Assembly (NCBI GenBank): GCA_037783545.1
Contig: JBBELK010000438.1
Coordinates: 744,001-808,000 of the forward strand
From: Henricia sp. BOLD:AAB3569
Lineage: Eukaryota > Echinodermata > Asteroidea > Spinulosida > Echinasteridae
DNA: 64,000 nucleotides
Direction: 5' to 3'
Both the position numbers and the translations under genes were made by a program. A model generated the notes under the pieces. It was not told the origin of the DNA and searched no databases. It worked only from the letters and a program-made list of their open reading frames with translations. Positions 3,353 through 62,300 of the stretch are shown here, piece after piece (within the stretch, counting starts at the first letter, position 1; the number at the start of each line of letters is the position of its first letter).

Positions 3353-3365
3353 ATGTTGAACTAAT

Positions 3366-4520
3366 GTGAGTAAGACCAAGGAAATTGTCATGGACTTTAG
3401 GACGAATCCTACCGACATCCAGCCACTGAGTATTAATGGGTTAGAAGAAGAAATGGTGGATTGTTTTACATTTTTAGGCATTCACATCTCATCAGACTTA
3501 AAATGGGAAATTAATGTCGACTGTATTGTGAAGAATGCACAGCAAAGACTGTTTTTCTTAGAACGACTGAGAGGCTTTCGTGTCAGCCAGAGGTTGTTGC
3601 TTAAATTCTACCGGGCAGTGATTGAGAGCGTTTTGACGCAGTCAATCATTGTTTGGTGGGGCAATGCCACTGTCATTGACCGAATGCGTCTTAGTCGCAT
3701 TGTTTCCACGTCTAGCCGGATTATGGAATGTGAAGTCCCTTCATTGGATGATTTGTATCATTCCCGAGTTAAGAAAAGAACGTATTCTCATTGCAGACCA
3801 TGCAGTTTCACCCAGCAAACGATTTTTTTTCCTCAACTAATGAGGTCAGGAAATCGATACAGATCCATTTCATCGGGGTCTAACCGGATGTTCCTAAGTT
3901 TTTATCCTACAGCAGTTCGAGTTTTAAACAGTTCTGTGCATGCGCGACAGTATTACTCTCGAAATGCAAAAGAGTGAAAAACTCACTCTTCAAAAGAGTG
4001 ACTCCCTTATAAAACCACTCGGAAACAATGAAAATCACTATAAAAGAAGTGAAATTCTGTGAAAAGAGTGGCAATCACTCCAAAAAGAGTGGGAAAACCA
4101 CTCCACAAAGGAGCCATATAAAGGACAGCTCGAAAAAGAGCTGTCCTTTATATGCATGGCTCCTCCTTTTAGTGTTTTTTCCACTCTTTTTGGAGTGATT
4201 GCCACTCTTTTTACAGAATTTCACTCCTTTTAGAGTGATTTTCACTGTTTCCGAGTGGTTTTATAAGGGAGTCACTCTTTTGAAGAGTGAGTTTTTCACT
4301 CTTTTGCATTTAGAGAGTATTCGGGGTATTGTTCTTGTATTCTTTATAATTTGAACTGATCTGTATTTTAAGAATGTATGTATTGTGATGTCTGTTTGAT
4401 TTATTTTCCTTTTTCAAAGGTGTTTGTGAATTTTAACGATTTTATAGCACGCCTATATAACCGAAGACATTGTATGTAATTGTATAGTGGCAATAATTAT
4501 TACATTGAATTGAATTGAAT
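3366..4520 (+). mobile_element. 5'-truncated LINE, reverse transcriptase C-terminus and tail
   Basis: Codons from 3366 encode the C-terminal part of a non-LTR reverse transcriptase. Visible marks are an SKTKEIVMDF start, the FLGIHIS motif, an AQQRLFFLERLR helix, FYRAVIESVLTQSI and a final GNRYRSI motif. This order fits the CR1/L2/Rex1 group; the clade is a judgement from memory. The catalytic FADD region and ORF1 are absent, so this is a truncated copy. The 3' end carries a 5-bp ATTGA tail repeat (about 4504-4520), as expected for that group. A 350-bp palindrome (3962-4311) is inserted where the reading frame ends, separating it from the 3' untranslated tail. Confidence 0.75.
3962..4311. mobile_element. 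350-bp palindromic element inside the LINE
   Basis: A near-perfect hairpin. The ends AAATGCAAAAGAGTG and CACTCTTTTGCATTT are exact complements, and pairing runs to the centre near 4137 (GAAAAAGAGCTG). Arms are built from repeats of the AGAGTG/CACTCT type. LINE sequence continues on both sides, so the palindrome inserted after the LINE. It has no coding capacity. Confidence 0.8.
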
Positions 4521-13605: not shown

Positions 13606-13826
13606 TGGGGGCACTGCACATGCACTGTGCAATGGCGAACATGCATGCCAAACTGCAGTTTCGAGTAATTCGCGTTTTTGAGAATAAAATCCCACTTTTG
13701 GGTAACCTTCTTGCTTAATGTTTAAACTTTAAATAATTATGTATTTCCATTTATTTAATTAATCTCTGAGCAATTATAAAGCTGTGAACGTGTTCGCTGT
13801 TAGGGATTTTGTACCTTTTTATAGAA

Positions 13827-13853
13827 TAGGTTAGGGTTAGGGTTTAGGGTTGG
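13827..13853. repeat. Short interstitial telomere-like tract
   Basis: About four TTAGGG-type units (TTAGGGTTAGGGTTTAGGG). This is the animal telomere motif but far too short to be a chromosome end. Confidence 0.75.
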
Positions 13854-14380
13854 TTATTTTTAAGGAATTTAGGGTTTTGAATGCGGTCGGTTTGCAACCA
13901 GCTTCGTGGTCTGGTTATAAGAGAGCTGAGTGTTGTTTAGGATTTTTCGAAATTTCTCGGTTTCTTTTTTTTTCTCTAAGAGAGGTTGAAAAATTGGGGT
14001 GTAGGCCTACCCAACGCTACGGTGTAAAAAAAAACTACGCCGGTCTGACCGTACACCGTATACCGTACACAACCGGGGCAAATCAAACTTGTTTGGGCCT
14101 TTGTTGGGTTACGGGCCTGTTTCTGGTGGGCTGATATGGGATTTCCCATGTTGTAACTGAGATGACAACTGCCACGTTAAAAACTATGAGTTATGAACAT
14201 TATCAACTGGTTTTCGCATGCATTTCCCTCGAATACAAAATTTGCAATAAACCAAAACGTTAACAGTCTCAAAATTGCGTTTTATGACCCTGATTGCGTT
14301 TTAAAACTGTTAAAGGGGAAGTCAACACTGCCTTCAGGTAATGTCGTTAGAATGTTTTGTCCTTTGAGGGCTGTATATAG

Positions 14381-15093: not shown

Positions 15094-18000
15094 GTAAGTC
15101 AAAACTATAACATTAAGGAAATCAAACTGTCTTAGCAAGGTACACTTTAGTCTCGTACCCAAACCTGATGTGGATGCTCGCACAGGTCTGGGGAATCACG
15201 ATGAGAGCTCATCATATCACTGACTGGTTGAGGCACGCACTGAATTTCGGTGCGGGACCCCTGCGAAGCTTTTGGCCATTATCATAAGCACCGCGGGTAT
15301 TAAAGCTTAGAAGCTGCATACAAATTAGTCAGCCGAAGTGTGACGTGGTTGCCATGGAAATTGGCTCTAAACTATCATGGCCGTCGGAAAAAAAGTACCA
15401 TTGCAAAGCACAGGGATACGGTTAAGTGATTTTTAGTTTATCAGTCTAAATTCAATCACACCAATAGCAGTGCACGTACTATCAACGACGGCTCACGAAA
15501 TTAAATGGGTAATCATGGCGTTTAACCTATCAGCGATGAGCTTTCACCGTGCGTGATTCCCCAGACCTGATGTGCGAGCATCCACAACAGGTCTGGGTAT
15601 GAGACTTCGTACACTTATTAAAGATGCTCTAGAAAATATATTTCGCTCTAACCTAAAACGAATATTCCCTTCCAGTGGCGGATCCAGCCTCATTAAAATA
15701 CAGGAATACAATGGAATTCAGGGGGTTGAACCCCTTGAAATCTCTGTATTTTAATGAGGCTGGATCCGCCACTGCCTTTAGTCACAAGAATTTGAACAGG
15801 AAAACAAGTATTTTTCAACAAATGTACATAATGCATGCATGCCTCCCCAAAATACTATCCATGGGACGATCTCATAAAATCATCAATCTCTAACTTGAGC
15901 AAATTGTAGCAATTTTGTGTGTATTTACTGTACTGTTCTTATAGGTCTACTCCGGATGAGTTAATTAAAACAAAAATCAGTGGAAATTTCAGAATGAGAA
16001 AAACATGACAAATGGGAAAGTGGGGGGAGGGCAAAATGTGATCTGGACACACTCCTTTCATGTGGTGGAATGGAATCGAGATGAAAACATGCCGTACTCC
16101 AAGTGTTTCCGATTTTTTAAATTCCCAAATTGACTCGCCTGGCTGCAGTTGTGTTGTGTTGTAGTTGTTGATATTAAACATTATAGCGGCTTGCCGACCA
16201 TTTTTCTTGCTGTAAGCAGAATGTCATGAAAGTAAAAGTGTTCATATTTTTAACCGATCGCATTTAAGTTGTTTTCATTTTGTCAAGGAAATCTTCGTGC
16301 CCATCCTTTTCATCGGTGCTGTGCGGCTCTTTTATGGCATTGCTAGTGTGGAAACATTCCCTGCCATTGGGTACGATAGTTACAAAAGCTACAGTTTATT
16401 ACAAGATTCCAGGCTACCCAATCCGTGGAAGTCAGTTGGCTACACTCCCAACACCACGGAAACCAACACTGTGATCAGAATCGTCACGGAGGCCTTGGGA
16501 GTAATTTGGCCTTATGGGGGCTTGCTGCCGTATGACACCGAGAAGGAAATGTTCCGTGCGTATAATGTCTCGTCCCCATCGACGCCGTTCGATATTGGGA
16601 TCGTTTTCAGCACCAAGTTTCCCGACAACTTAACAGTTACAATACGCACGGACAGCTCGCCCTTTTTTAGGTCCACAGATCTGTACACCGACTCCCCAGG
16701 TATGCAGTGTGTATTGACCTATATACAGAAATCCATTCAAATTAAGCTTGGGCGGTTCTGGAGTCGATTTCACGAAACATTGCGTAGCTTGCGCAACGTG
16801 TGAAAAGGGCATAAGCCCCATAGGCTTGCGTGTACTATCACAGGAATGTTGCGCAGCTTCCGCTGGCAATAAAAAGTTGCTCAAGCGGGCTTACGCAGTG
16901 CGCACTCTCTTAATTCCTAAGATTGAAAATTCCGATCTTTGAATAGATTGAATTTATTTTCAATCTAATGGATTGGTGTTAGATTGAAAAAGCACCTTGA
17001 AGTAAGTTATTGCAGAATCCACGAGTCAAACTTCATAAAGATTGGGAGTTGTTTTGATTGGATTGAAACCAGTATCCAATCGAAATGCCGTATCACACCA
17101 CGTGCACGCTGTGCTATGTGACGTATCGCGCGTACCCACGCTAAACCTTATACGCCAGTCAGTACAGATATAGATACATGTAGCCCTACAAATAGGGCTG
17201 TAAATAGCTCACTTTTGAAATCTGACTTTTTACACTGTCGCCATTACAGCCCTACTTGAGGTCGTACGACAATACCAAGTCTCAAACTGCTCAAATCTGA
17301 CAAAGTTCTACTAGAAATACCGTCCGAAGCACATCGGACCGAGCACTTTCACATACACCATTGTAATCCTGAGAGTCTAGTGTTTCATAAAATAACAGTA
17401 ACGCTTACGGAATCGTCAATTTGGCCATCTACGATGTCTGGGAACATTGGACAAAATTCGGACAACGTTTTGCCCAGCATCTCTATGGGCGACGCCATCT
17501 TAGCTGATATGCTTCCGCTTCTCGATCATGAGACGTACAGGAGCCCGGCTAACTGTGCAATATGCATAATTCATATTGACGTCGCGCGTGTTTATCCCAG
17601 CTGGCAACTACGTCACGCGCGCAGTGCAGCTAGTTATCGAACTGTGCGAGTGACGTACTTGCCAGCTGGGATAAACACACGGACGTCAATATGAATTATG
17701 CATATTGCACAGCCGGGCTCCTTGACCGAGAAGCGCCACCACGCGTCCAGCATATCAGCTAAGATGGCGTCATCCAGGGAATGCGGCTCAGAACATTGTC
17801 CGAAATTTGTCCAATGTTTCCAGACATCGTAGATGGCCAAATTGACGATTCCGTAAGCGTTACTGTTATTTTATGAAACACTAGACTCTCAGGATTACAA
17901 TGGTGTATGTGAAAGTGCTCGGTCCGATGTGCTTCGGACGGTATTTCTAGTAGAACTTTGTCAGATTTGAGCAGTTTGAGACTTGGTATTGTCGTACGAC

Positions 18001-21000
18001 CTCAAGTAGGGCTGTAATGGCGACAGTGTAAAAAGTCAGATTTCAAAAGTGAGCTATTTACAGCCCTATTTGTAGGGCTAAGATACATGTAGATCTAGAG
18101 CGCGTGGTCAAACTCAAACTCAAATCTTTATACGTTTGTCGGTTTTCTTCGGATCATGATGGATGAAGAAGCACTTTCACTCCGTAATTACCTAGAAAAC
18201 CTGGGTTTTGAAGACGCAAGCATAACTCTGCTAGAAGGTGAGTATTTTTCTCTTGTTCATTTGCTTCCGATGTTGTCGGATTGGTTGATTCATGGTTGCA
18301 GGTCAACTCGACCGTTTGCCAACTCGACTCCTACCAACTCGACCGTCGTACCAACTCGACCGTCATACCAACTGTTATTTCCGCGTGTGATTGAGGATTA
18401 TGTTTGAACCCAACTAGTGTGATTTTCGCGTGCCACCCACCGCGCGGACACGCAATGGTTTCGGGCAGCCGCCGGCCTGGAAAACGGTTTCGGGCAGCCG
18501 CCGCCCTGGAAAACGGTCGAGTTGACTCGACTGAGTCGAGTTGGTACGACGGTCGAGTTGACAAACGGTCGAGTTGACTAAACCCCCTTTGGCCGTGTGT
18601 TATTCAGTGTTATTATTTTGGGTATTTTTTCCATATACATTGAACACGGATTTGGGTAAATTTATATGTTGGAATCGATAGCGTATTCAATTCTAAGATA
18701 TACAGATATACTTCCCACTGACACTTCCGTCGCAAATGTTGCATTTCTGAGATAAATAAATGATACAATTACTGCATAAAGTGATGCACAAAATGACGTG
18801 GCCAGCGGTCTGTGCGTAAGCGCGACAACAGAGGGCGCTCCGCGCGCGCGTGAATGGTTATCTTGTGCACTAACTGAAGGCAATTTGAGGAAGTAAACGT
18901 GATTTTTCTACAGAAAAGCAACATTTACGACAAGTGCAAGTGGGAAGTATATCTTAAAATTACATTATGTGTTGATTCCAGGAGGTAATTTCCTTAAAAT
19001 CTTTGTTCAATGTATACGAAAAAAATACCTTATTTTGGGATTTTAACACGGATTTCGGTGAATTTATGTAGGCCCCTATTCAATTCTAAGATATAGCCTA
19101 GGCTAGACCCGTGAACAGTGCTTCGGAGATCCTCAGCCCTGGAGCCGTTTCTACCCAAAATGTACCCCTAGAACTATGGGGGACTGTATCCCCCATAGGT
19201 TATGTTGTTTTTTTCCAATATGGCGGCGCCTGAACTTTAAGATCGGACCGATACGGTTTAAGCTAGCGCAATAATCCGCTCCCCAATCGCCACCAAACTC
19301 CGTCTGATAGTTCTTGAGACACTCACCTTGCGTGTGTCTACGGAATTTCGGTACCATTTGTCCATTAAATTCTCCGAAAATAATGTTGGAAAATGAACGG
19401 GAACATGTGCGATGCATGTGGATGCATGATCGAGGCATTCGGTGCGATGCATGTGGATGCATCGCACATGTTCCCGTTCATTTTCCAACATTATTTTCGG
19501 AGAATTTAATGGACAAATGGTACCGAAATTCCGTAGACACACGCAAGGTGAGTGTCTCAAGAACTATCAGACGGAGTTTGGTGGCGATTGGGGAGCGGAT
19601 TATTGCGCTAGCTTAAACCGTATCGGTCCGATCTTAAAGTTCAGGCGCCGCCATATTGGAAAAAAAACAACATAACCTATGGGGGATACAGTCCCCCATA
19701 GTTCTAGGGGTACCCAAAATGTATGGCAAACTCAAGCAAATGAAATTTGTCCCTTGGCTCTGAAATTTGGTCAATAGGTGCACTCACCCCAATGTTCAAA
19801 TATTCCAAAGAGTACGCATCGATCCAATGTCTAGTTTCGGTGAAATCGTGGGGAAAGTTTGAGACGCCGAGCGATGAAATACCGACTTTCACCATGCGCG
19901 AGAGCGGAGAGGTCAACACAATCTAGACTGGTTCGCTGTCCTCATATTTACTTCCCTTCATCTTACGACGAAGGTAAGTAAATTGAGGATGTGGAACCAG
20001 TCTAGTGTTGACCTCTCCGCTCTCGCGCATTTGATTTTTGGTGAAAGTCGGTATTTCATCGCACGGGGTCTCAAACTTTCCCCACGATTTCACCTAAACT
20101 AGACATCGGATCGATGCGTACCTTTCGGAATATTTTAACATTGGGGTGAGTGCACCTATTGAGCAAATTTCAGAGCCATGGGACAAATTTCATTGTACAG
20201 AGAGATGATCCTGGTTGCAAAGTCTCTCATTATGTGCACTGTGTACAGACATACCTAAGAGAAAAGGATGTTAATTATTTGTTTACCAAGTGATGAACCA
20301 AATTCCCAATATTGTCATTATTAGATAAACTTGGAGTTTGGACTGTTGCATGATGCGCAACAAGACAATTTCATCAAAAAATGGACTTCCTTTAGAGATG
20401 CTATAATTGCTGTAGGAAGGAAGGAATACCCTGCAGTAAGAGAGGTGATCACTTCCTTCGAGCATGGAAACGGTAAGTTAGCCATACTACATAGTTCTTC
20501 AGACATGCACTTTCTTAAATTTGTCTGTAATATCAACACATTTTGCTAGTGCTGGAAAATAGCCATGAGTGTGCCGCAATTCTATTCACATTCTATGCAT
20601 CAGTAATGTCGGAGGCGTTTGCTAGTACATTCCCAATTAAATAGTTTTTTAGCTCATTCTTTATTCATGTGTACATTCGTTTGCCACTTGGACAATTTCT
20701 TGGCAAATTAGTGTTGTCCATAAAGACAAGCTTTAAGTGTTAAGCCCCACAGGGAAACCATCATAAAAATGCTGCCGTTTTAAATATTTGGATGAAAAAT
20801 TGATAAATCTTTGTTGATACAGTATGTGGGCAACTGGCACTTTCTTTAACTGCTATATAATTATATATATATATATCAATAATTTTAGTCATTTTAATAT
20901 TTTAATTACAATGCAGAGGACCTGTGTGGACTGTTCGCATTGTCATATATGCTTCATCGGTCGATAAACAAAACCAAGTCAAAGCAGGGACCAACAAGCG

Positions 21001-27000: not shown

Positions 27001-30000
27001 CATAAATACACACGCAGCGGCACGCGTACGTACGTGCACGCGACTGTCAATTCAAATTCTTGAAACAATTGGGAGGTTTCGGTCGCATACGGTTATGCAA
27101 AACGACGACTTATTAGTGAATTTTACGTCATCGATTTGTGCGTACTTGTGGCGTTTACACAAATATCCCAAGTGTTGTTTTGTTGTTTACACTGATAGCA
27201 ACGCCTCTACACCTTAGTAAAAAACGGACAGCGAAAGGTAACGATTTTGAGGTTTGGCTAATCGTAGTCGTAATCACTAACCGTGCACACCGAAACCTCA
27301 CTATTGACGAATTGTACCCGACGATTAACGGTAACGTTCGGACTACAGGACGTGCATTCGGGTAACTTCGGGAACCTTCGGAAAAAGGAGGAATTCCTCC
27401 CGTTTCAAAATGGCGGAATAAACCTTATCGACGTTCTCAATGCATTATGGGATTGGATGACAAAATTGCCCGGCGAAATGTGCATAAACCTATGAGGCGG
27501 ACACCAACTAGGCAACTTTTTTACTCATTTTCACGAAAACCAAAAAGAGTTCAAGAATCAACCTCCCACCACTTTATCTTTGACACATATCAAACATACT
27601 GACAAACATGTCCCGAAACAGAAATGTTGCAAATGCGAGAAATCATCGGGGATTTCCTTCGTATCGGTAGTGCGAGTACCACGCTCGCAGCTCGGTATGC
27701 GCTCCCCAACGCACGCCGTATCGGCACTGCGAGTCAGGCTGCAGGGTGGCCTGATGACGGACTCGTAGGCGTGTGTTGCATAGCGCATACCGAGCTGCGA
27801 GCGTGGTACTCGGACTACCGATACGAAGGGAATCCCCGATGATTTCTCGCATTTGCAACATTTCTGTTTCGGGACATGTTTGTCAGTATGTTTGATATGT
27901 GTCAAAGATAAAGTAGTGGGAGGTTGATTCTTGAACTCTTTTTGGTTTTCGTGAAAATTAGTAAAAAAGTTGCCTAGTTGGTGTCCGCCTCATAGGTTTA
28001 TGCACATTTGGCCGGGCAATTTTGTCATCCAATCCCATAATGCATTGAGAACGTCGATAAGGTTTATTGGCGGCTGCCGGACCTTAAATTCAGTAGTTTT
28101 GGGCCAAGACTAGTATCAGAGTAGTCTTGTCACAAGACCGAATTTTGGTTCCCCCCACGCCCCGCCTACGTGCTGTACCCACTACCGATAGAGGGCGCCA
28201 TTCATACTTCGACCGAGGTCGAACACAGTATTTTGAAGTAACCTCCGGGTACCTTTGCTTTGGGTACCTCCGACCTAGCTAAGATAATCTCAGCTCTTTT
28301 TTTATCATTTTTCATTGGGATGTGGTCTTTTCACGTGTAGAGCTGAGAGAAGTTATGAACATGAACCCGCCATCGCAAAAACAGGACAAAACAAATGTGT
28401 CATTTTCTCACCGTGACACACTAATTCCCCCTAAAACTCACCCAAACCTTGTCAGGCATAACCACTACGCAGGTCCTTGAGGGAAATAACCAGCCACGAT
28501 GATTATTTTGCCAACAATTCCAGCAAAACAAACCGGTATGCTCACAGCCTAGCCGTTTTTGTCTTGTTCAAAAACAACCAAGTGTCTAGTCTGTGTACAA
28601 AGGAATACCAATGCGCATTGGTTACCAGACTTGACCCTCACGTCTGGACGTGAAGGTCAAGTCTGGTAACCACTGCGCATTGGTATTCCTTTGTACACAG
28701 ACTAGACACTTGGTTGTTTTTGAACAAGACAAAAACGGCTAGGCTGTGAGCATACCGGTTTGTTTTGCTGGAATTGTTGGCAAAATAATCATCGTGGCTG
28801 GTTATTTCCCTCAAGGACCTGCGTAGTGGTTATGCCTGACAAGGTTTGGGTGAGTTTTAGGGGGAATTAGTGTGTCACGGTGAGAAAATGACACATTTGT
28901 TTTGTCCTGTTTTTGCGATGGCGGGTTCATGTTCATAACTTCTCTCAGCTCTACACGTGAAAAGACCACATCCCAATGAAAAATGATAAAAAAAGAGCTG
29001 AGATTATCTTAGCTACCTCCGACCATCCTCCATGGCTAGCCCCACAAATAGGGCTGTAAAAAGCTCACTTTTGAAATCTGACTTTTTACACTGTCGCTAT
29101 TACAGCCCTACTTGAGGTCCGTACGGAAAGTTTTAAACTGCAAATTCGTCTGAAGTACATCAGACCATAGAGTCGTGAACGTGGCGTTGTTCACGGGTCT
29201 AATCAGACCAGAGCACTTTCACATACACCATTGCAATCCTGAGAGTCTTGTGTTTCATAAAATAATGGTAACGCTTACGGAACAGTCAATTTAGCCATTT
29301 ACGGCGTCTTGAAACATTGGACAAAATTCGGACAACGTTCTGACGTGCATGCCCTGGGCGCTGCCATCTTAGCTGATATGCTGGACGATGGTGGCGCTTC
29401 TTGGTCAAGGAGAGGAGCCCGGCTGTTCAATATGCATAATTCATATTGACGTCCGTGTGTTTTTATATCCCAGCTGGCAAGTACGTCACTCGCACAGTTC
29501 GATAACTAGCTGCACTGCGCGCGTGACGTATTGCCAGCTAGGATAAACACACGCGACGTCAATATGAATTATGCATATTGCACAGTTAGCCGGGCTCCTT
29601 GACGTCTCATGATCGAGAAGCGCCACCATTGTCCAGCATATCAGCTAAGATGGCAGCGCCCGCGGCCCATGCCCAGGGCATGCACGTCAGAACGTTGTCC
29701 AAATTTTGTCCAATGTTTCAAGACGCCGTAGATGGCCAAATTGACGATTCCGTAAGCGTTACCGTTATTTTATGAAACACTAGACTCTCAGGATTACAAT
29801 GGTGTATGTGAAAGTGCTCTGGTCTGATGTGCTTCGGACGATATTTGTAGTGGAACTTTCTCGGATTTAAGCAGTTTGAAACTTAGCATTTCCGTACGGA
29901 CCTCAAGTAGGGCTGTAATAATAGCGACAGTGTAAAAAGTCAGATTTCAAAAGTGAGCTATTATTTACAGCCCTATTTGTGGGGCTACCGACCACCTCCG

Positions 30001-38300: not shown

Positions 38301-41300
38301 GCAGGCTGGCAGGCTGGCTGTGCTGGCTGACTGGCTGGCTGTGCAGGCTGGCTGTGCGGGCTGTGCGGGCTGTGCGGGCTGTGCTGGCTGGCTGTGCATG
38401 CTGGCTGGCTGGCTGTGCAGGCTGGCTGTGCAGGCTGGCTGTGCAGGCTGGCTGTGCAGGCTGGCTGGCTGTGCAGGCTGGCTGTGCAGGCTGTGCATTG
38501 TATCATGCATGATGTCATAATGGCCGCTAGTTAATCTGCTTGGCCGGCGGTCGATGTCAATGTGTTGATAAAACGTTTTATGTTAATAAAACGTGCTGTT
38601 TTAGCTGCCGCAGGAAAAAAAAATTGACGCCCATGCTTGAAATTGACGCACGCGTAGACCAGAGACCGAACATCGTTTTTGTTTTGGGCCTAAAGCTTCT
38701 GTGTGCTCAAAATTCCCACTCTCAGACTGACCACTTTTTAAATCAAAAAGTAGAGAAAGTTTTTGCGCTTCTTTTGTTGCTCAGTCATAGTTGGGTGGCG
38801 CCATTGGCAGCCGACGGCTAGAGACACCTTACACTTTATGAAAAAGTGCTCTGGAATCTGTGTTGTACTGTCGTGTATCCATTTAACTTGTTAACAGACT
38901 AATGAATTGTCTTTGTTTTGATGACATATGTACATGTAGTATCCGCAATTTGACAAAGACCTACCCAGGCAGTTGGGGGAAGCCAGACGTTCTTGCAGTA
39001 AGAGGTGAGAAATTTGCCAAATGATACATTGAAATACAATTTAAATACCTGACTGTATTTTCTGAGGTCGATTTCACAAAGAAATATTTGCGACGCGTCG
39101 TAACAACTGATGAATCCGTCGCAACAACACGACTGCCAAATAAATATTTGCAACTTTTAGAAGGGTTCTGCCCTACTTCGTCCCCATGGTCTGAACGATC
39201 GCGCTCGACCATCCTGGGGACAACGTTGGATTCTGCCCACAACTTGCAACTTGTCGCAAGTGTTTTGTGAAATGCAACTATAAACCCATTGTGAACTTAC
39301 GAAGGGTTCAGCAAGTTGCACTGAATTTGAGCACTTGCAACGCGTCGCAAGCCTTTGTTAAATCGACCCCATTTTATAATTTCTAGGGATAAGTCTTGAC
39401 ATCTACGAAGGCCAGATCACATGTCTGTTGGGGCATAATGGAGCCGGCAAGACCACCCTGATCAATGCTCTAACTGGCCTTGTACCGGCCGACAGCGGCC
39501 ATGCTACCATCTGTGGCTATAGCATCAGGGATCCCATACAGATGCAGGAGATTCGCTCCATGATGGGCGTATGCTCACAGGATAATACTCTGTTTGATAA
39601 GTTGACACCACGAGAACACCTGAAGGTGTATGCTGGATTGAAAGGCGTTGCACGAGAGGATATAGACGCAGAGGTACAAAATTGATTTGATATTGTTTTA
39701 GGCAAATTTAACCCGATATTTTTATTAGCAATGTTTGTAAAGGCATGTGTCGTTTCGGAATGTTTAAGGTACTGTATGAATCTCCTTAAAAATAACTCAA
39801 AAATATGATGCTATGAATAAATTCCATTTGGTACAGGTTTTAGACCCTAAACATGTTACCTTGATATACTTTTACAAACTGGGTAATTCCCAAAATTAGG
39901 GGTCCAAAATGTTTGGTGTCCCAGTTACGTACGACACTCTCTGCTTCAAAATCACCACTTATGACCACAAATTCTCAGTAATGGACTATGGCCATTTGTT
40001 TTCTGATTCCTGAAAAATATTCAAAACAAAAGACCATAAAGGCTTATCATTTGTTTCATGGTATTGAATAGGAGTTTGGTGTCCCGGGTTACCTACGCCA
40101 ATGAAAATTGGCTGTAGAATGAGTTTGCACTAACCTTGGTGCCATATCTACACACAAACATTAAATTTGAGTGGCATTTGTACAAATAAAAATAATTTTT
40201 TTCTACTGGGAAACCACTTTCAATCATTAAAAACACTTGAAGCATGTCACACTTTTGGACCCGTCATTTTGGGAATTATCCAACTACAAAGTGTCTATCT
40301 CAAATTGGGACAAAATCCATCAATTGCAAAGAAAAACCTCCCTAGCAACAGGAAACGTTTACCGAGCAACGAGTACAGTAAACGGTTATTTATATTGGCC
40401 AGCTTGGTGGTTGAGTGCTTACGACATCTGTCTAGTATGCAGGAGGTCGTGGGTTCGAGTCCCACTCGAGCACGCTATGAAGTTCTCTCTTAGGGCAAAG
40501 CAAAAGCCTAATTAATAATTCATTCTTCCCGACGCAAGCCAGGTAGCATTATCTCACCAGTTCTTTCTAATGCTGTAATTTAGTTATTTTATAAGATAGG
40601 AAACAAAATGGGGAGAGAGAGAACTCTATGCAGCTGGGATGTTCTAGATGCATTTAGTCAAACAATTTGCCAAAAATGTGCAAATAAACAGAATAATTGG
40701 ACATAACAAAAATGTTAAGCAGCCAATCAGTTACCATGGTGACTGGGTCTAAACATTCACTGATAATCTGAAACGTCCAATGCTAAAGTTCAAGGAAACA
40801 ATTCACTGGTTTTTACACAGTAACCTTGGAAACCCAAAACGGATGACGTTTTCACTTTAGTATTCTGTTATAGATTTTTTTCTACAAATGTCTATGTGAG
40901 AGTACACTACTCACAATAAGTTTGGGATATTGTGGGGTGTATGCATATATTTTATTGAGGGTATGCATTCTGCTTGAATGATTTTGTGTATGATTAGACA
41001 GTTGTATCTGCATGACAGACACACCTTGTCACAGGAATAGGCGAAAACAGTCATTTGACGAAAAAAAATCCAAAAACCACAACGTACCAACACTTGTTTT
41101 GAGTAGTGTAGTGCGGTAATATAATCTACCTTATATTTAGAATTCCAACAATGTCACTTCTGAATTTGAGATGAGCTGCCAGCAGCATGTTATCGAGGTT
41201 ATTTGTTTCTCTTTAATAGGCTGATAAAATCTTGAAACTGACCATGCTGGACCAGTCGGCCAACACCAGGTCTATAAACCTCAGCGGTGGACAGAAACGC

Positions 41301-44300
41301 AAGCTGTGTGTTGGCATTGCACTCATTGGAAACCCCAGGGTAGGTATTGCGAAAGCGGGACATTGGTATATGTGCGACGAGGGGGCGCATCCTCGTTATA
41401 TTACATACATGTATAACCCCCAACACCTTGGTTCTATTGAAATTTGTGTGCAAATTGGAGGCTTTGTTACTGTTAGGGTTAAAGATAGGTTACAGGATTG
41501 TAAAACTGTTACAAATGGCATTATCTCCATGAGTGATTGAGGATGTATATGATAAAAACCATCTTTTTGTCGCCAAGCTGTTTGCTCCACACCGAGTTCC
41601 ACAAAACCCTTGCTGAAATGAGTCTAGCTAAGCTGTATTAGACCCCCGGGCTGTTCGACTAATGAGAGATCTATAATACTGAACACCATTGACCGTTTCG
41701 ACCAATTATCTCGCGACATTTTCAAAAAATGTCTTTGTGAATTATATTGCCTCAAGCATTAGACCTGCCAATATCCATTTGGAGAAAACGTTGAAAAACT
41801 TTTCCCATGCTTTAAAGAAAGCATGCCAAGCTACTCGCCTATTTAGGCTTGTTTCGTGGCTTTATTGCATGGATTGTGGTTGTAATGGATCTGAAACATA
41901 ATAATGTCACCGTTTGTTTACATATGTGCTTTCCTACGGTCTTATGTCGTCTAGTACCCTGAGACTCCCCAATAGATTTGCAAACCTTGACGTCATTATG
42001 TTCAGGTCCATCGTGAATTGTAGTACACAGTCTGGCAACTGAAACAAAGCATTATTAAGGCGCCTTTCCTTCGGTCCGTTTTTCATCCGTCTTGTGCGTG
42101 CGTTGCGCTCCACAGACCGATTACAGACGGATGAGCGCAGCATATACGCAACGCACGCCCAAAGGATGAAAACGGACCAAAGGAAAGGCGCCTTTACTGC
42201 GATATTGCACAATGACAAGTCACGGCTACTTTCATCGATTTCAAGAATTATTGAAAAAAAACGTTCAGTTACATTGCAGCTGTATATGTCTACTTAATTT
42301 ATGACATTTCCCACACCAGAATGAATGTTTCATTAGTACTTTTCCTCAAAAAATTCAACACCAAACAAGTTTTTGCAGAAGCTTGTTGTATATTCTATCA
42401 TTTAAAGCCATTTTCCCACATATAATTATAAATGTTAAGGTAATTTTTCACCTTTTCATGGAGTTGCTCTTTTGAGACCCCCACCCAAAACTCGGGGAAT
42501 GGATTTTTGGAATAATTTATGTGGCCAATAATGTTGTTTTGATTGCGTTCAATCAGATTCTGTTTCTTGATGAGCCAAGTAGCGGCATGGATCCATACTC
42601 ACGAAGACAGATGTGGAATCTACTCAAGAACCAAAGACAAGGCCGAATCATGGTACTCTCCACGCACTTCATGGACGAAGCGGACATTTTGGCAGGTTAG
42701 TGGTTGTCATTGAGTTCAATCAGATTCTGTTTCTTGATGAGCCGAGTAGCGGCATGGATCCATACTCGCGAAGACAGATGTGGAATCTACTCAAGAGCCA
42801 AAGACAAGGCCGAATCATGGTACTCACCACGCACTTCATGGACGAAGCGGACATTTTGGCAGGTTAGTGGTTGTCATTGAGTTCAAACAGATTCTGTTTC
42901 TTGATGAGCCAAGTAGCGGCATGGATCCATACTCACGAAGACAGATGTGGAATCTACTCAAGAGCCAAAGACAAGGCCGAATCACGGTACTCACCACGCA
43001 CTTCATGGACGAAGCGGACATTTTGGCAGGTTAGTTGTTGTCACTGACATTACCCCCCAACGTTAACGGCAGTTTCTTTGCTGCTATTGCGCCTGGAGTG
43101 CTAAATATTAAACGAGCGTGACCAGATTGTCCTAAAAATGGATTTCATTCTAACTGAACAATCATATGAAATACCTCCCTAAAATACTATCCATTGGGAG
43201 ACAATGGGCAATTTGCAATCTTCAATTTGGATGTGGAAGCAAAAAGGTTGGTGTGATAACTGCACTGCTTTATATAACTGGATAAATTAGTTCACTAAAC
43301 TTTGGTAGATTTTTGACGATATCCCTGGAAATATACATATTGAGGGCGTGAAATTTTAGAATGGTAATGAGAAAAGTATGACACATGATATGATATCAAA
43401 ATCTCAATACCCATGGGGTAAAGTGGGGGTGTCAAAAATATGATCTGGTCACGCTCCTTCAAAGGCTCATTGCAATGACCAAAAACTACTTGTTTTTCTC
43501 TAAAACCAAAGTGCCGATTGATGGAAGGAATTGACAAGTAAACAAACAAAATTTAGGAGGGATGTCCAGAAATCCATCCCGAGAATGAATCTGAAGGCAG
43601 ATGTGCTGTAGTTTCTGGTAAAAACAAAACAATGTCGTTCTGGAACAAGACTGCTACCGAATACCATTACTGATCAATTAACTTGAATTTTTGAAACCGT
43701 AGATCAAAAAGCAGTAGTCTCTCGAGGCAGTCTCCGTTGCTATGGATCCTCCCTCTTTCTCAAGAACCGCTTCGGGGTTGGTTACCATCTTGGGTAAGCT
43801 TTTCCATTGTTAGACTACTTTTACAATGTAATACTGAACAACAAAAGAAATATGGACAATTTCTTCATAAACTATACTGACATCTGGCCAGGCTTGCTTG
43901 TCTATGGCAACAGAAGACTATGCTGTACTATACTGAAGTAAGGCATTTTGAGAACACTTCACCTTTATTTTGATTAGTTTTGATGTCAACTTTTTAAACA
44001 AAAGTTAAACTGAAGAATTGTCTGTCTGCTGCCTTTAGTCCCCTAGAATGTTGGTGGGTTACCCCACCTCCTGACCAAAGCTGAAAATTAACTGGGTTTT
44101 GTGGCATTTTTGGCCAGTTAATCCGGGTTAGTTGTAGCTCCGAGATTTGCAGTGGAGAATGGACGCTTAACACGGGTAATCTCGGAATCAAAATGTCGTG
44201 GAAAAAACACCACCTGTTATAATACCAATGATGGTGCAATCTTTGCACTTTACAGCATTATCGCCCTGGTCATTGGGCACAACTCCCTGGAGGGTATTCA

Positions 44301-47300: not shown

Positions 47301-50300
47301 CCAGAGGTCAGCTCATCCCACACAGGTTTAACCAAGTTGAAATCCCAATAAAATGGGTTTTGTGAGAGAAACGGAAAATATCATGTTTCATTGCTGTGGG
47401 AGTCACTCTTTTCAAATGGATCCTTTTGGACCTGGGGGAAATTCACTGAAGCAGAACAGTCTTTAAAACAATTCCTGAGTGATTGGTCATTCGGTGCCTC
47501 ATTATTAAAAAGCTCACTGTATTTAACAAACTTCAGTGATCTCCACTACCGGTTTCGTCCGGGCGCGCCGCCCGGACAAAGTCATCAGAGGTACCGTTAG
47601 CGCCCGGACAAAAGTTTGCCGCCCGGACAAAACATTGTGCCGCTCGGACAAAAAAAATATAATTTCTCCTCCAAAACACTATGAAAGTACAGCCAAGTCA
47701 TTCCAAAATGAGGTGTATATTCACCTAACGTGATTCGGTAGTCACTGGTGTCATTATCGGTCATTTACCACGCAAATCTATTGGATCAGCGACCCAAATT
47801 CGCATCGATAACGGCCATGACAGTATGCATTTGTTGAACAGCGCCCTCAAGAGTCGAATTTGTTGACATCTTGAGGGCGCTGCATGCCAACCACTGTGTC
47901 GCGGCGTACGGGCCGGGTGCGTTCGTGGTTGTACGTTTGGGTGAGTGCGTGCCGCCTCCGCTACCCCACCCCCACCCCCCCCCGCTGAGCGACATCAGCG
48001 CGCCCGGACAAAATTTGGACCAGTGGAGATCACTGAAACTTCTGTTCCAGTTAAAGATTTAACATTTTGAGAAAATGTTTTTTCTTTTTTGGGAGAGTAT
48101 ATTTCAATTCAAGTATTCTTGGGTTTCACTTTCTTGACAACCGGTTGCTATCCGCCATTACTGTGTCCATACTATGGCATGCCAAAACGAAAATAATTCA
48201 ACACTGATAATTCTGCCATCAACCCTGAAAAACAAGTTAACATTTTTTAAAAACTTGCAAACAAAAGCACAGTATAATGCCAGTTTCAAACAGTCTGTCA
48301 ACATTTAAAAGTCATGCCAACTTGTTTTTCTTGCGCAACATTTACGAAAAATGCGCCAACATTAAATTATCAGTGTTGAATTATTTTCTCTTTGGCGTGC
48401 CATAGTATGGACACAGTAATGGCGGATAGGAACTGAAACCCAATAATTAGTAGGGGCATTCGAGATGCTTACACCATGTAAGACCAACTTACACCGGAGT
48501 GTTCTTTTAGCCATCACGTGATACACGAGTCTGCCCCGGTGGCAGCCAGCACTGCCCGACCTCGCGTCGTGGTCTCTGGTGTAAGGCTCGGTGTAATGAC
48601 GTGACCTAGTAACCGTGTGGACGTTGAGAGTAGTAAAACATGGCGGACAGTTTGGAATTGCGACATGAGTACGAAGAAAAACACAGATTTATGACACAAA
48701 ATAGGAGGGAATAGGGCTGTAAATACATTTTGCTTAATCAGTAGATGTCTGTGGGCATTGACAAAGTTTATTACGGTAGAAATAGGGGAACTATTAACGA
48801 TAACATTGTTTACAAAAACCCCGCCTGGCAACCTCTGACCTGCGTTCCCAGAATTCAAAGTGGAATCCCGTGTTGTTCATCTTCTAAAGGATTCCCCCGG
48901 TGTAAACTCCGTGTTACACGGTGTAAGCATCTCGAATGCCTTTAGTAATAATAATAACTCTGGCACTGATTTAATTCAATGAATCTAAGGTGCATGCAAT
49001 CACTGTATGCTTTTTCCGCAGACGTACATTTTCCGCTTTCTAGTTCCAGTCCTTTTCATTGTGGTGGCAGCCATTTTGATAGCCACAGTGTCATTTACTT
49101 CTTCGTTCGGTGGACAGCAAGAGCCATTCGTTTTTGACCCTAATGTGTACCTCAAGAACAAATTGGACTCCACTTCCCAAGGGCTGACTGATCTGCTTTA
49201 TCAGAGTAACCTGACGAAAGGAGGTAAAATACCCTTTTTTGATCTTGTTTTTACCAAATATTGTATTGTGAAAGAGAACCAGGGCTGTAGTCGAGTCCTT
49301 GGTGTCCGAGTCCAGGCCGAGTCCTTGGTGTCCGAGTCCAAGCCGAGTCCTTGGTGTCCGAGTCCAAGCCGAGTCCTTGGTGTCCGAGTCCAAGCCGAGT
49401 CTTTGGTGTCCGAGTCCTTGGTGTCCGAGTCCAAGCCGAGTCCTTGGTGTCCGAGTCCTTGGTGTCCGAGTCCAAGCCGAGTCCTTGGTGTCCGAGTCCT
49501 TGAGTCCGAGTCCAAGCCGAGTCCTTGGTGTCCGAGTCCAAGCCAAGTCCTTGAGTCCGAGTCCAGCATACATCTGAGTCCTCAGCAGGCAGAGTCCGAG
49601 TCCTTTGTTTCAATCTACATTACTGTGAAGTATCAGTGATAGTACTTGGTTGAGGAAAATATATCTTTGGCACGTGAAATACATTTTGAGTGCTCAAAAT
49701 CATTTCAAGCGGTTGCAATTCCACCTTCTCAAAATTTCAGTTCACGAGTTTGAAATATTTTTGTAATGGTGCTTGAAATAATTGTTTGGCACTTGTAAAA
49801 TGTCTCTTAACGTCTGTGTATTTTCTTTTTCACTGGACTCCGAATAACTTGGCCCAAATCTCTGAATTCTTACTGGCCGAGTCCACAGCCTAGTCCTTGT
49901 CAAATTACGTGATTTCTTGTGGCGGTTTATTCACACGTTCACTCCTTTAAATGCTAGTGTATGTCTTTTCCCCATTAGGTGTGGACCCGTTGGTTAAGCA
50001 GTTTGATGATATGAAGTTGATCAGCAAGGAAATAGTTGACCTGAGTCAAATCATGTCGTTGGCGCCGCACAGTATGGCCGTTGTGACTGAAGAATTCAAC
50101 ATTTCTGCCGTAAGCAATCTTTAAACCCTTGTAGCCAAAAAATTTAGAAAACTGAATTATCAGGGGTCGATATCACCAAACTCTTCGTACGTTAAGGTCC
50201 ATAATAAGGCTTGCGATGGATCGTAGGGCTGCGATAGATCGTGTGGCTACGATGGGGGCTGCGATGAATTTCACCAAACCCTATCGTAAGGCATAAAAAA

Positions 50301-59300: not shown

Positions 59301-62300
59301 TTCTTTAATAAATTGTTAGTGTTTTAAAGATGATTTTGTAAAAAATGTTCCAACTAACCCCACTCTGCCTAGGCCTACCGCACTCGTCATGTAAATACCA
59401 AATGAGCCAAAGGCGAGCTTGGTAATTTAACCACAAAAAACATGGGTGTATTTTTCAGGTTTTTTGAAATACATGCAACTATGTGTGGCTGAAATTTCTA
59501 CAATTTGTCAACATTATTCTCTAGTTGTGTATTGCTGTTGTTCCTGTTTTTAAAGGTTTTTAATTATGTAATCTGTATTTAAATAGCTTTTTGAAGAGTA
59601 CTCCGCCAAACAAGATCTTGCGAGTTTGACCTTGAATTTCTACCTGGATTTTGATCAAGTCTTCATGCCATCCATTCTGTGTGTAAGTAGTCCTGTGGCA
59701 TTTAAAGGAAGGGACAACAATTGCAAAGGGTTGCCTAACTTTGTACGCTTCATGTAAGTCGACATATTTTGTAGTTCGGCGCTCGGACTTGAGACGGCGT
59801 GAGTCAGGACACAACAGATTTTTACAAACTTCACGGCGTATGGGAGTCGGGAAACCAAGGCATCAATCTTGACGTCATCCATGCAATCATTGCATGGTTG
59901 ACATCATCATTCCTTTTAAAATTTCAAATATGCCGCAGCACATGCAGAGTTTATCATCAAAATTTATTGGAATGCTGACGTTGAGAACACAATTCTCTGA
60001 TTCTCATGAAGGTTTATGCACCGGGCAATATATCGGTAATATATTTTTTTATTAAATTCGTTGATAACAAGTGTTGTCCCTTTCCTTTAAAGGCCCATTG
60101 TATCATTTGCAATTACCCAAAACTTCACTTGTTAACAAGTAAGTGTTGACAACAGTGGCAGCAAACACCATGTGAATTTATTTCTGTCCAAGATGGTCAT
60201 TTTTTTAAAAAATTAACAACTGAAGGTGTTTTTATTTTTCAGAAAGTGTGTGCGTTAAAATTTTTCGCTGTTCATTTTAATAGCACAAAAACCATGTGGC
60301 GTATTCACTTTTTAAGTGAATGATGCTAGGAACAAGATGTTGCTGCACTAAGAGTTTGCGGACGCCCACCCTCACCCATAGCACGAGCCGTGGAATGTTA
60401 AATTATCTGATTTCATTTTTCATCATCGCTTAATCTGATTGTTTGACTACCCCGTATATAGATGGGCAGTTTTTATTTTGTAGGAATAATTTTGGGGACA
60501 CGATTAAACGTTGCTTCTGTGTAAACAGATAAAGTCTGACTAGCACTGAATAGCCATTCGTTCATAAATTGAAATCAGGTAGCAGGCCATTCCTTGAAAC
60601 TTTTTGAGAATGCCACAATCCAAGTGTTGATAGGGTTGTGGGCCTTGGCCAGGCAGCCACCTAGTTGAAGCGAAATGATTCTAATGATGGCAGCAGTAAT
60701 AATGCAAACAGCGCCATAATTACCCTCGTGTAGGGTAGATATTTGTGTACTGTACAATAATTTACCCTTATTATTATTACAGGTTATAGGTGCTTTGGTT
60801 GTCGTCACACCCTTGTTGCCTATGCTGGAGATCTGGAATAATGGAGGAAGTGTGCTAAAAGCTATCAAACGCAGGTAGGTGTGCCACTAGTCATCAACCA
60901 TGATCGTGGTTTAACCCCTTCGCGTCGGGAACTGCATATATGCAGTTTTAAGTTGATAGTCGTGGGGGCTGTAATACAGAATTAGCCCGTGGGTCAGTAC
61001 TACCAAGGCAGAGCTTGTTTCTCAACTTGTTGGCTTAGGCTCAAGTCAGTTTTTGGTTTTTGACCTGACTCTGGAGAAAATGACTTGTGAGCGGATTGAT
61101 TAATGACTTGAAATACATGTAAAAACTAGTCATCAAGTCTCCAGCCCTAGGGACATATACAGTGTATAACCAAAACTGCCAGTGCAGTCTCCCGCTCCAG
61201 GGGAATAAATTGGAAAATGTTTAGCCGCTGTGAAGGGGTTAAAACTGTACTCTTAAATTGTTCTCAAGCTAACAAAACTCGTAATAATCAGTTGTAAAGC
61301 ATTTTTTGGCAACTTAGTGAGCTCATCCCAGGAATTGTACCTGTGCTAATAATAAATCCCAGATTTTCGTAGTGTATGCAAATTTTATGCAAAATTCATG
61401 CATATTTTAGAAACAAACTTAGTAATAACCACATTTCTCTGTGGCTTGACCTACCTAGGCATACTGACTTGAGCAAATGCCAGCCAGTTGAGAGACCAGC
61501 TCTGCCCTGGTAGTACTGACCCAGCTAATTCTGTATAACCACCCCCAAGGCATACACACCGACTTGAGCCCAAGCCAGCCAGTTGAGAGACCAGCTCTGC
61601 CCTGGTAGTACTGACCCAGCTAATTGTGTATAACCACCCCCAAGGCATACACACCAACTTGAGCCTAAGCCAGCCAGTTGAGAGACTATCTCTGCCCTGA
61701 TAGTACTGACCCAGCTAATTCTGTATAACCACCCCCAAGGCATACACACCGACTTGAGCCCAAGCCAGCAGGTTGAGAGACCAGCTCTGCCCTGGTAGTA
61801 CCGACACAGCTAATGCTGTATAACAACCCCAAGGCATACTCGGCTAAGAATTGGTATCAAGTCTTCTCTCACAAAAAGATTAAACACTATTTTTTGTCAA
61901 ATTCTCATCACTAATATATTTTTCATTTTTATTTAGTAAGGAAGATAACAGCTTTAACGTGACAGATTTTGACGAATTAGAAGACGAAGACAGCGATGTA
62001 AAAAGAGAAAGGGAAAACGTGAAGTCACTGCTCGGTCAGGACATCAACGAAAGCAAGGTAATTTGACCAAAAACAGTCTAGGAGTGCTTCAAAGGAAATC
62101 TTAAATACCTCAACACTTGATTTTAATGATAGGGTGTGGTATATTCCATAAACCTCTTGGACAAATTTTTTAAAAATGTGTCAAAACAATCGACCCTTTT
62201 CTGTCCATTTCTAGGCCAAATTTTGTCCTATAACCAAACTTTATACTTCAATGGAAACCCTTATTTAAAGGTAGAACACATGGCTGGTATCTCGTAAATC

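Follow-up and report, generated by a model that had tools for sequence, protein, structure and literature searches.

Judged by its sequence, one exon of an ABCA-type transporter gene is, if the assembly is right, recently triplicated in tandem in the DNA of Henricia sp. analysed here, a stretch of 64,000 nucleotides that we call the window. The reading we prefer, with moderate confidence, is that this recent triplication is tolerated since a single copy, mostly copy 1, is spliced. The array is probably a tolerated recent duplication and not an established molecular switch; a mutually exclusive switch is unproven and, given the age of the array, the mildness of its differences and the quality of its splice sites, not the likeliest reading.

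Results and Discussion

The + strand of the window carries much of an ABCA-type transporter gene, with introns, whose NBD2 reaches the window end. A continuous NBD1 was obtained by translation from exons at about 39386-39673 and 41220-41339, the triplicated exon and the exon at 43703-43793. Translation and tblastn placed the two neighbours of the array on the + strand: the upstream exon (41220..41339) ends in phase 0, is followed by the donor gtaggt and codes for the ABC signature motif (LSGGQKRK...GNPR), and the downstream exon (43703..43793) is entered in phase 1. Across the three exon versions, the NBD1 matches PF00005 (ABC_tran) with E 1.1e-30 to 1.2e-30; the query peptide included three extra residues (VQN), which we assign to the intron, as 39673 (weak donor, score 3.34) is the apparent end of exon NBD1a. 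The closest solved structures among the best 60 of 560 matches are ABCA3, ABCA1, ABCA4 and ABCA7, followed by a drop to ABCB. An ABC_tran domain with nearest similarity to ABCA proteins identifies the NBD1 as that of an ABCA-type transporter. No ABCA5 chain is among the matches listed (best 60 of 560 and 60 of 64, solved structures), and the ABCA5-like label given to the gene at first is putative.

Five further peptides were taken from frames up- and downstream. ABC2_membrane_3 was matched above the cut-off in one and below it in two, one had no relevant match, and the NBD2 start near 63 kb matched ABC_tran; the fifth peptide was made of two frames joined at a putative junction. The candidate N-terminal frame at 16216-16803 gave no Pfam family match. 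We saw no signs of gene decay in the gene parts examined. A tRNA match (40401-40473, 41.6 bits), perhaps a tRNA-derived SINE, lies inside the gene, and the intron upstream of the array holds an inverted-repeat element (42057..42194) with 26-nt arms that are 96% complementary, which appears MITE-like. Directly 3' of a putative transporter exon there is a minisatellite at 49292-49565 with units of 26-67 bp, all of it spanned by an open, possibly translated frame of 216 codons (48989-49639).

Tandem Repeats Finder reports the whole array on the + strand at 42542-43047, with a period of 167 bp, 3.0 copies and 96% matches. Exon copies 1 (42557..42695), 2 (42724..42862) and 3 (42891..43029) are separated by gap 1 (42696..42723) and gap 2 (42863..42890), which are 28 bp each and differ from each other at one position; gap 1 runs from the donor gttagt to the acceptor caatcag. 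Each exon copy is 139 bp long, with CAG before it, GTTAGT after it and an open frame. The first-pass annotation had described three copies in 167-bp units, each with acceptor, donor, open frame and phase 0 in and 1 out, and coordinates, repeat finder and translation all bear this out. With adjacent complete exon copies that carry their splice sites, the locus is a tandem duplicated exon array. The exons differ at 4 of 139 positions between copies 1 and 2 and at 3 each between copies 1 and 3 and copies 2 and 3; the corresponding counts for the 167-bp units, which are 96-97% identical, are 5, 7 and 6. From its translation, the exon product is the Walker B to H-loop portion of the NBD1 of an ABCA-type transporter. 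The motifs Walker B, D-loop and H-loop can all be assigned in copy 1.

A chance repeat was rejected on two counts. At lags of 100-299 the best self-match is 136/139, compared with 62-63 in all five of five mononucleotide shuffles, and a 17-base exon word that occurs three times averages 0.01 occurrences over 100 dinucleotide shuffles. A tblastn search of the window with the exon (E up to 1) returned only the three places. One match of the downstream exon at 13792-13854 (tblastn E 0.015) falls in sequence that looks noncoding and was treated as chance. Prokaryote genomes and viral contigs, in which host DNA was hardly to be expected, were also scanned for exact patterns and gave 0 matches.

The reading frame leaves little room for combinations. 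Because the upstream exon ends in phase 0 (donor after 41339) and the downstream exon is entered in phase 1 (acceptor before 43703), a length of 1 mod 3 is needed between them. We translated all eight copy subsets and found only the three single-copy mRNAs open. The joined sets 1+2, 1+3, 2+3 and 1+2+3 each stop at array residue 50, exon skipping (zero copies) stops at residue 4 and gap retention at residue 47. The earlier argument that two copies of a 139-bp exon would shift the frame is thereby confirmed and completed. Length, phase, homologous product, splice sites and unproductive joint inclusion are all as the sequence criteria for mutually exclusive exons demand.

The spacing adds a further constraint. 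The donor-to-acceptor gaps between neighbouring copies measure 28 bp, and the path from copy 1 to copy 3 is a 195-nt intron. That 28 bp lies below the usual intron minimum had been claimed at the outset and agrees with the 37-65 nt range in which human ultra-short introns were screened (PMC4463651). The TAG predicted for read-through is present as well: the in-frame TAG comes straight after the codon that straddles the exon end. Candidate branch points were searched as YTNAY matches within 75 nt, so that other adenines (e.g. in the donor gttagt) were given no weight. Copy 1 has a candidate TTTAT at 42519 (+ strand), 37 nt before the AG end, and a second one at 42542, just 14 nt from that end. 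The YTNAY candidates of copies 2 and 3, at 52 or 64 nt from the AG, are all located within the exon copy that comes before. They are thus upstream of the donor to be joined, which makes 1-to-2 and 2-to-3 splicing implausible. The 1+3 intron has branch candidates 131-143 nt beyond donor 1. Steric hindrance would apply to neighbours with their 28-bp gaps and not to copies 1 and 3, which are 195 nt apart. The statement of the first-pass annotation that the arrangement on its own restricts each mRNA to one copy therefore stands for 1+2 and 2+3 and does not stand for 1+3, where the frame-shift alone blocks a product.

The acceptor context becomes poorer from copy 1 to copy 3. Pyrimidines occupy 13, 11 and 10 of the 20 positions before the acceptors of copies 1, 2 and 3, and 11 of 20 before the downstream acceptor at 43703. 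With an approximate matrix the acceptors score 0.91, -0.68 and -0.68 for copies 1, 2 and 3 and 0.16 for 43703; copies 2 and 3 tie because matrix position -4 carries no weight. As the constitutive acceptor at 43703, needed by all transcripts, also scores low, poor scores do not show disuse. The donors of the three copies are identical over nine bases. In a simple duplex test, gap 1 paired with the flanking introns no better than shuffles did (at least as strong in 43/60 and 55/60), and in this one test the array does not show the docking-selector type of RNA structure. From these weak signals, we would predict that copy 1 is mainly spliced, with some 1+3 waste.

Five exon sites vary, and at each of them a single copy departs from the other two (copy 1 at two sites, copy 2 at two, copy 3 at one). 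Two are synonymous, both private to copy 2; the three nonsynonymous ones are N/S and S/T, private to copy 1, and M/T, private to copy 3. The variable residues accordingly read N, M, S in copy 1, S, M, T in copy 2 and S, T, T in copy 3. Exon positions 74, 95 and 103 distinguish the copies, with A-T-T in copy 1, G-T-A in copy 2 and G-C-A in copy 3. Such single-copy changes, taken with the high identity of the units, indicate that the array is young and near star-like, and the pattern of private changes fits near-simultaneous copying with little time since. The ratio of nonsynonymous to synonymous changes is 3:2; under neutrality, about 0.73 of the changes would be nonsynonymous (binomial p 0.62). 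This fits neutrality; five sites give little power, and weak selection either way is possible.

Neutral change was also simulated in 20,000 runs. All copies stayed intact in a fraction of 0.69 of the runs with five substitutions, 0.80 with three and 0.55 with eight. An AG, a GT and an open frame kept in all copies are hence the default at the age of the array and no sign of alternative use. The copies had been called splice-ready, which is correct in so far as they are intact and loses its force as evidence of use, given the 0.69 at five substitutions.

The three amino-acid changes fall within 11 residues and cluster before the H-loop. The S/T site lies two residues before the conserved histidine; in alignments the NBD1 of ABCA1 has S there and that of ABCA3 has T, so that the stretch reads STH in the former and TTH in the latter. 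Both proteins have isoleucine at the M/T site, whereas at the N/S site ABCA1 has lysine and ABCA3 has arginine. The Walker B glutamate, which is presumed catalytic, and the histidine, the presumed switch histidine, are present in each of the three products. Near-identical activity of the three products would be expected from this comparison.

We propose that one ABCA-type exon, along with a total of 28 bp of intron from its flanks, recently underwent tandem triplication, and that the array would be tolerated because its products would remain interchangeable and errors would be filtered out. Neighbouring copies, to judge by their spacing, would be too close for joint splicing. Translation of an mRNA that has no copy, or has two or three of them, runs into an early stop, and such an mRNA would then decay. 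Most transcripts would use one copy, most likely copy 1, which is favoured because it has the sole ordinary intron before it, the richest pyrimidine tract and a branch candidate at a normal distance. Selection for three isoforms would not be needed. Two features count against the tolerated duplication: the identical nine-base donors and presumed catalytic residues in all copies, and the confinement of the three changes to 11 residues, including a site two positions before the presumed switch histidine, a pattern that may reflect tuning.

This brings us to a true mutually exclusive set, in which a regulated choice among three NBD1 exons would fine-tune ATP hydrolysis near the H-loop. In its favour, the copies agree with the criteria of PMC3228551 in length, frame, phase and homology, adjacent copies fall below the donor-to-branch threshold of about 50 nt given in PMC7969005, and other ABC transporters offer examples (PMC9741552); the clustering of differences before the H-loop points the same way. 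We nevertheless think such a set unlikely, because the differences are few and consistent with neutrality, docking-type pairing was not found in one simple test and copies 1 and 3 are not sterically exclusive. Moreover, tandem exon duplication is common, mutually exclusive splicing of the copies is not, and most mutually exclusive events are ancient (PMC9741552). We see only a small chance, too, for a newborn three-way set, in which all copies would be used, exclusivity would come from geometry and frame alone at the very beginning of its evolution as a set, and the S/T and M/T isoforms would differ in ATPase rate.

The array could also be an artefact of assembly or allelic misjoining, the animal having one copy, or at any rate fewer than three, and haplotype variants or read errors being joined end to end. 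The divergence of 3-4% between copies is comparable to that between alleles in certain outbred marine invertebrates. We regard this as improbable, since the differences between copies are at single sites, a single 167-bp register is maintained, both array ends lie inside intron and the window has no N runs; haplotype misjoins, moreover, would usually duplicate stretches of read or contig scale and not 167 bp. Finally, the array might be a leaky splicing lesion: exon definition would often keep copies 1+3, since copy 1 has the best left-hand edge and only the right-hand edge of copy 3 is not closely followed by an acceptor, and the stop at array residue 50 would lower gene output. An intron of 195 nt with the branch candidates named above would permit this joining, and 1+3 shifts the frame and stops. 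We judge such a lesion very unlikely, because donor strengths are equal and a mildly harmful arrangement should be lost or stay rare.

The tolerated duplication also suits its surroundings. Five tandem arrays with a period of at least 40 bp, the exon array included, make up 2.9% of the window, and the stretch from 16 to 31 kb holds eight inverted-repeat pairs, each 100 nt or longer. With tandem and inverted duplication this common in the window, the capture of a whole exon is less remarkable, the more so because selection would be expected to remove cuts through the exon.

At 28269-29022 there is a near-perfect palindrome with 376-nt arms, 99% complementary and 2 nt apart, and similar inverted repeats are found at 17181-18080, 27417-28068 and 19208-19666; they are perhaps fold-back transposons or recent inverted duplications. 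A tandem array with a 95 bp period (61466-61839, 3.9 copies, 92%) has no recognised exon in it. The only Pfam match up to E 0.1 for a 205-codon frame at 3360-3977 is ALKBH8_N (E 1.7e-12). We take this frame to resemble the end of a non-LTR retrotransposon protein, for which the ALKBH8_N label is odd.

Comparison with known systems

Because most described mutually exclusive events are old (PMC9741552), how such sets start is inferred. An array with at most about 4% divergence, an exon length not divisible by three and unspliceable gaps would be plausible as the beginning of such a set, with frame and geometry supplying exclusivity before any regulator evolves. The number of copies used here would be a direct test of this idea; if a single copy is used, the array is an example of tolerated exon duplication.

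The exon product is alike in sequence to the corresponding part of NBD1 in ABCA1, ABCA3, ABCA4 and ABCA7 (solved structures). We know of no triplicated exon in the genes of these four proteins. Interchangeable tandem exons are described for ABCC9, fly mrp (eight) and worm mrp-1 in PMC9741552, and the gene studied here resembles them as an ABC transporter with such exons. ABCC9 gives rise to SUR2A and SUR2B, which are distinguished by their C-terminal 42 residues; PMC10276813 suggests that these residues affect NBD2 dynamics. The array differs from this pair in that it belongs to another subfamily and varies from Walker B to the H-loop, whereas the SUR2 variation is C-terminal. The SUR2A/SUR2B difference is presumably the ABCC9 exon event mentioned above. 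In the open-access literature, covered in part, we found no statement that places the interchangeable exons of these fly and worm genes relative to the NBD. The first-pass annotation knew of no mutually exclusive set described for the catalytic core in any ABC transporter; this holds in that no mutually exclusive set covering Walker B to the H-loop was recognised in the same partly covered literature, which is weak evidence of absence, but interchangeable exons as such are described in ABC transporters.

In human clusters, joint inclusion may shift the frame in 377 (60%), and close spacing applies to 57 (9%), according to PMC5740500. The array shares with human tandem exon sets that are spliced in a mutually exclusive way (PMC5740500 and PMC9741552) homologous neighbours, equal length and phase, frame-shifting joint inclusion and close spacing. 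It departs from them in that its copies are nearly identical and young and their exclusive use is only putative. OGDH exons 4a/4b offer a parallel in geometry, since there, too, a short donor-to-branch distance prevents the joining of neighbouring copies (PMC7969005). In OGDH, however, the two exons are separated by a genuine intron and the branch points have been mapped, whereas the array has a 28-bp gap and consensus candidates inside the exon.
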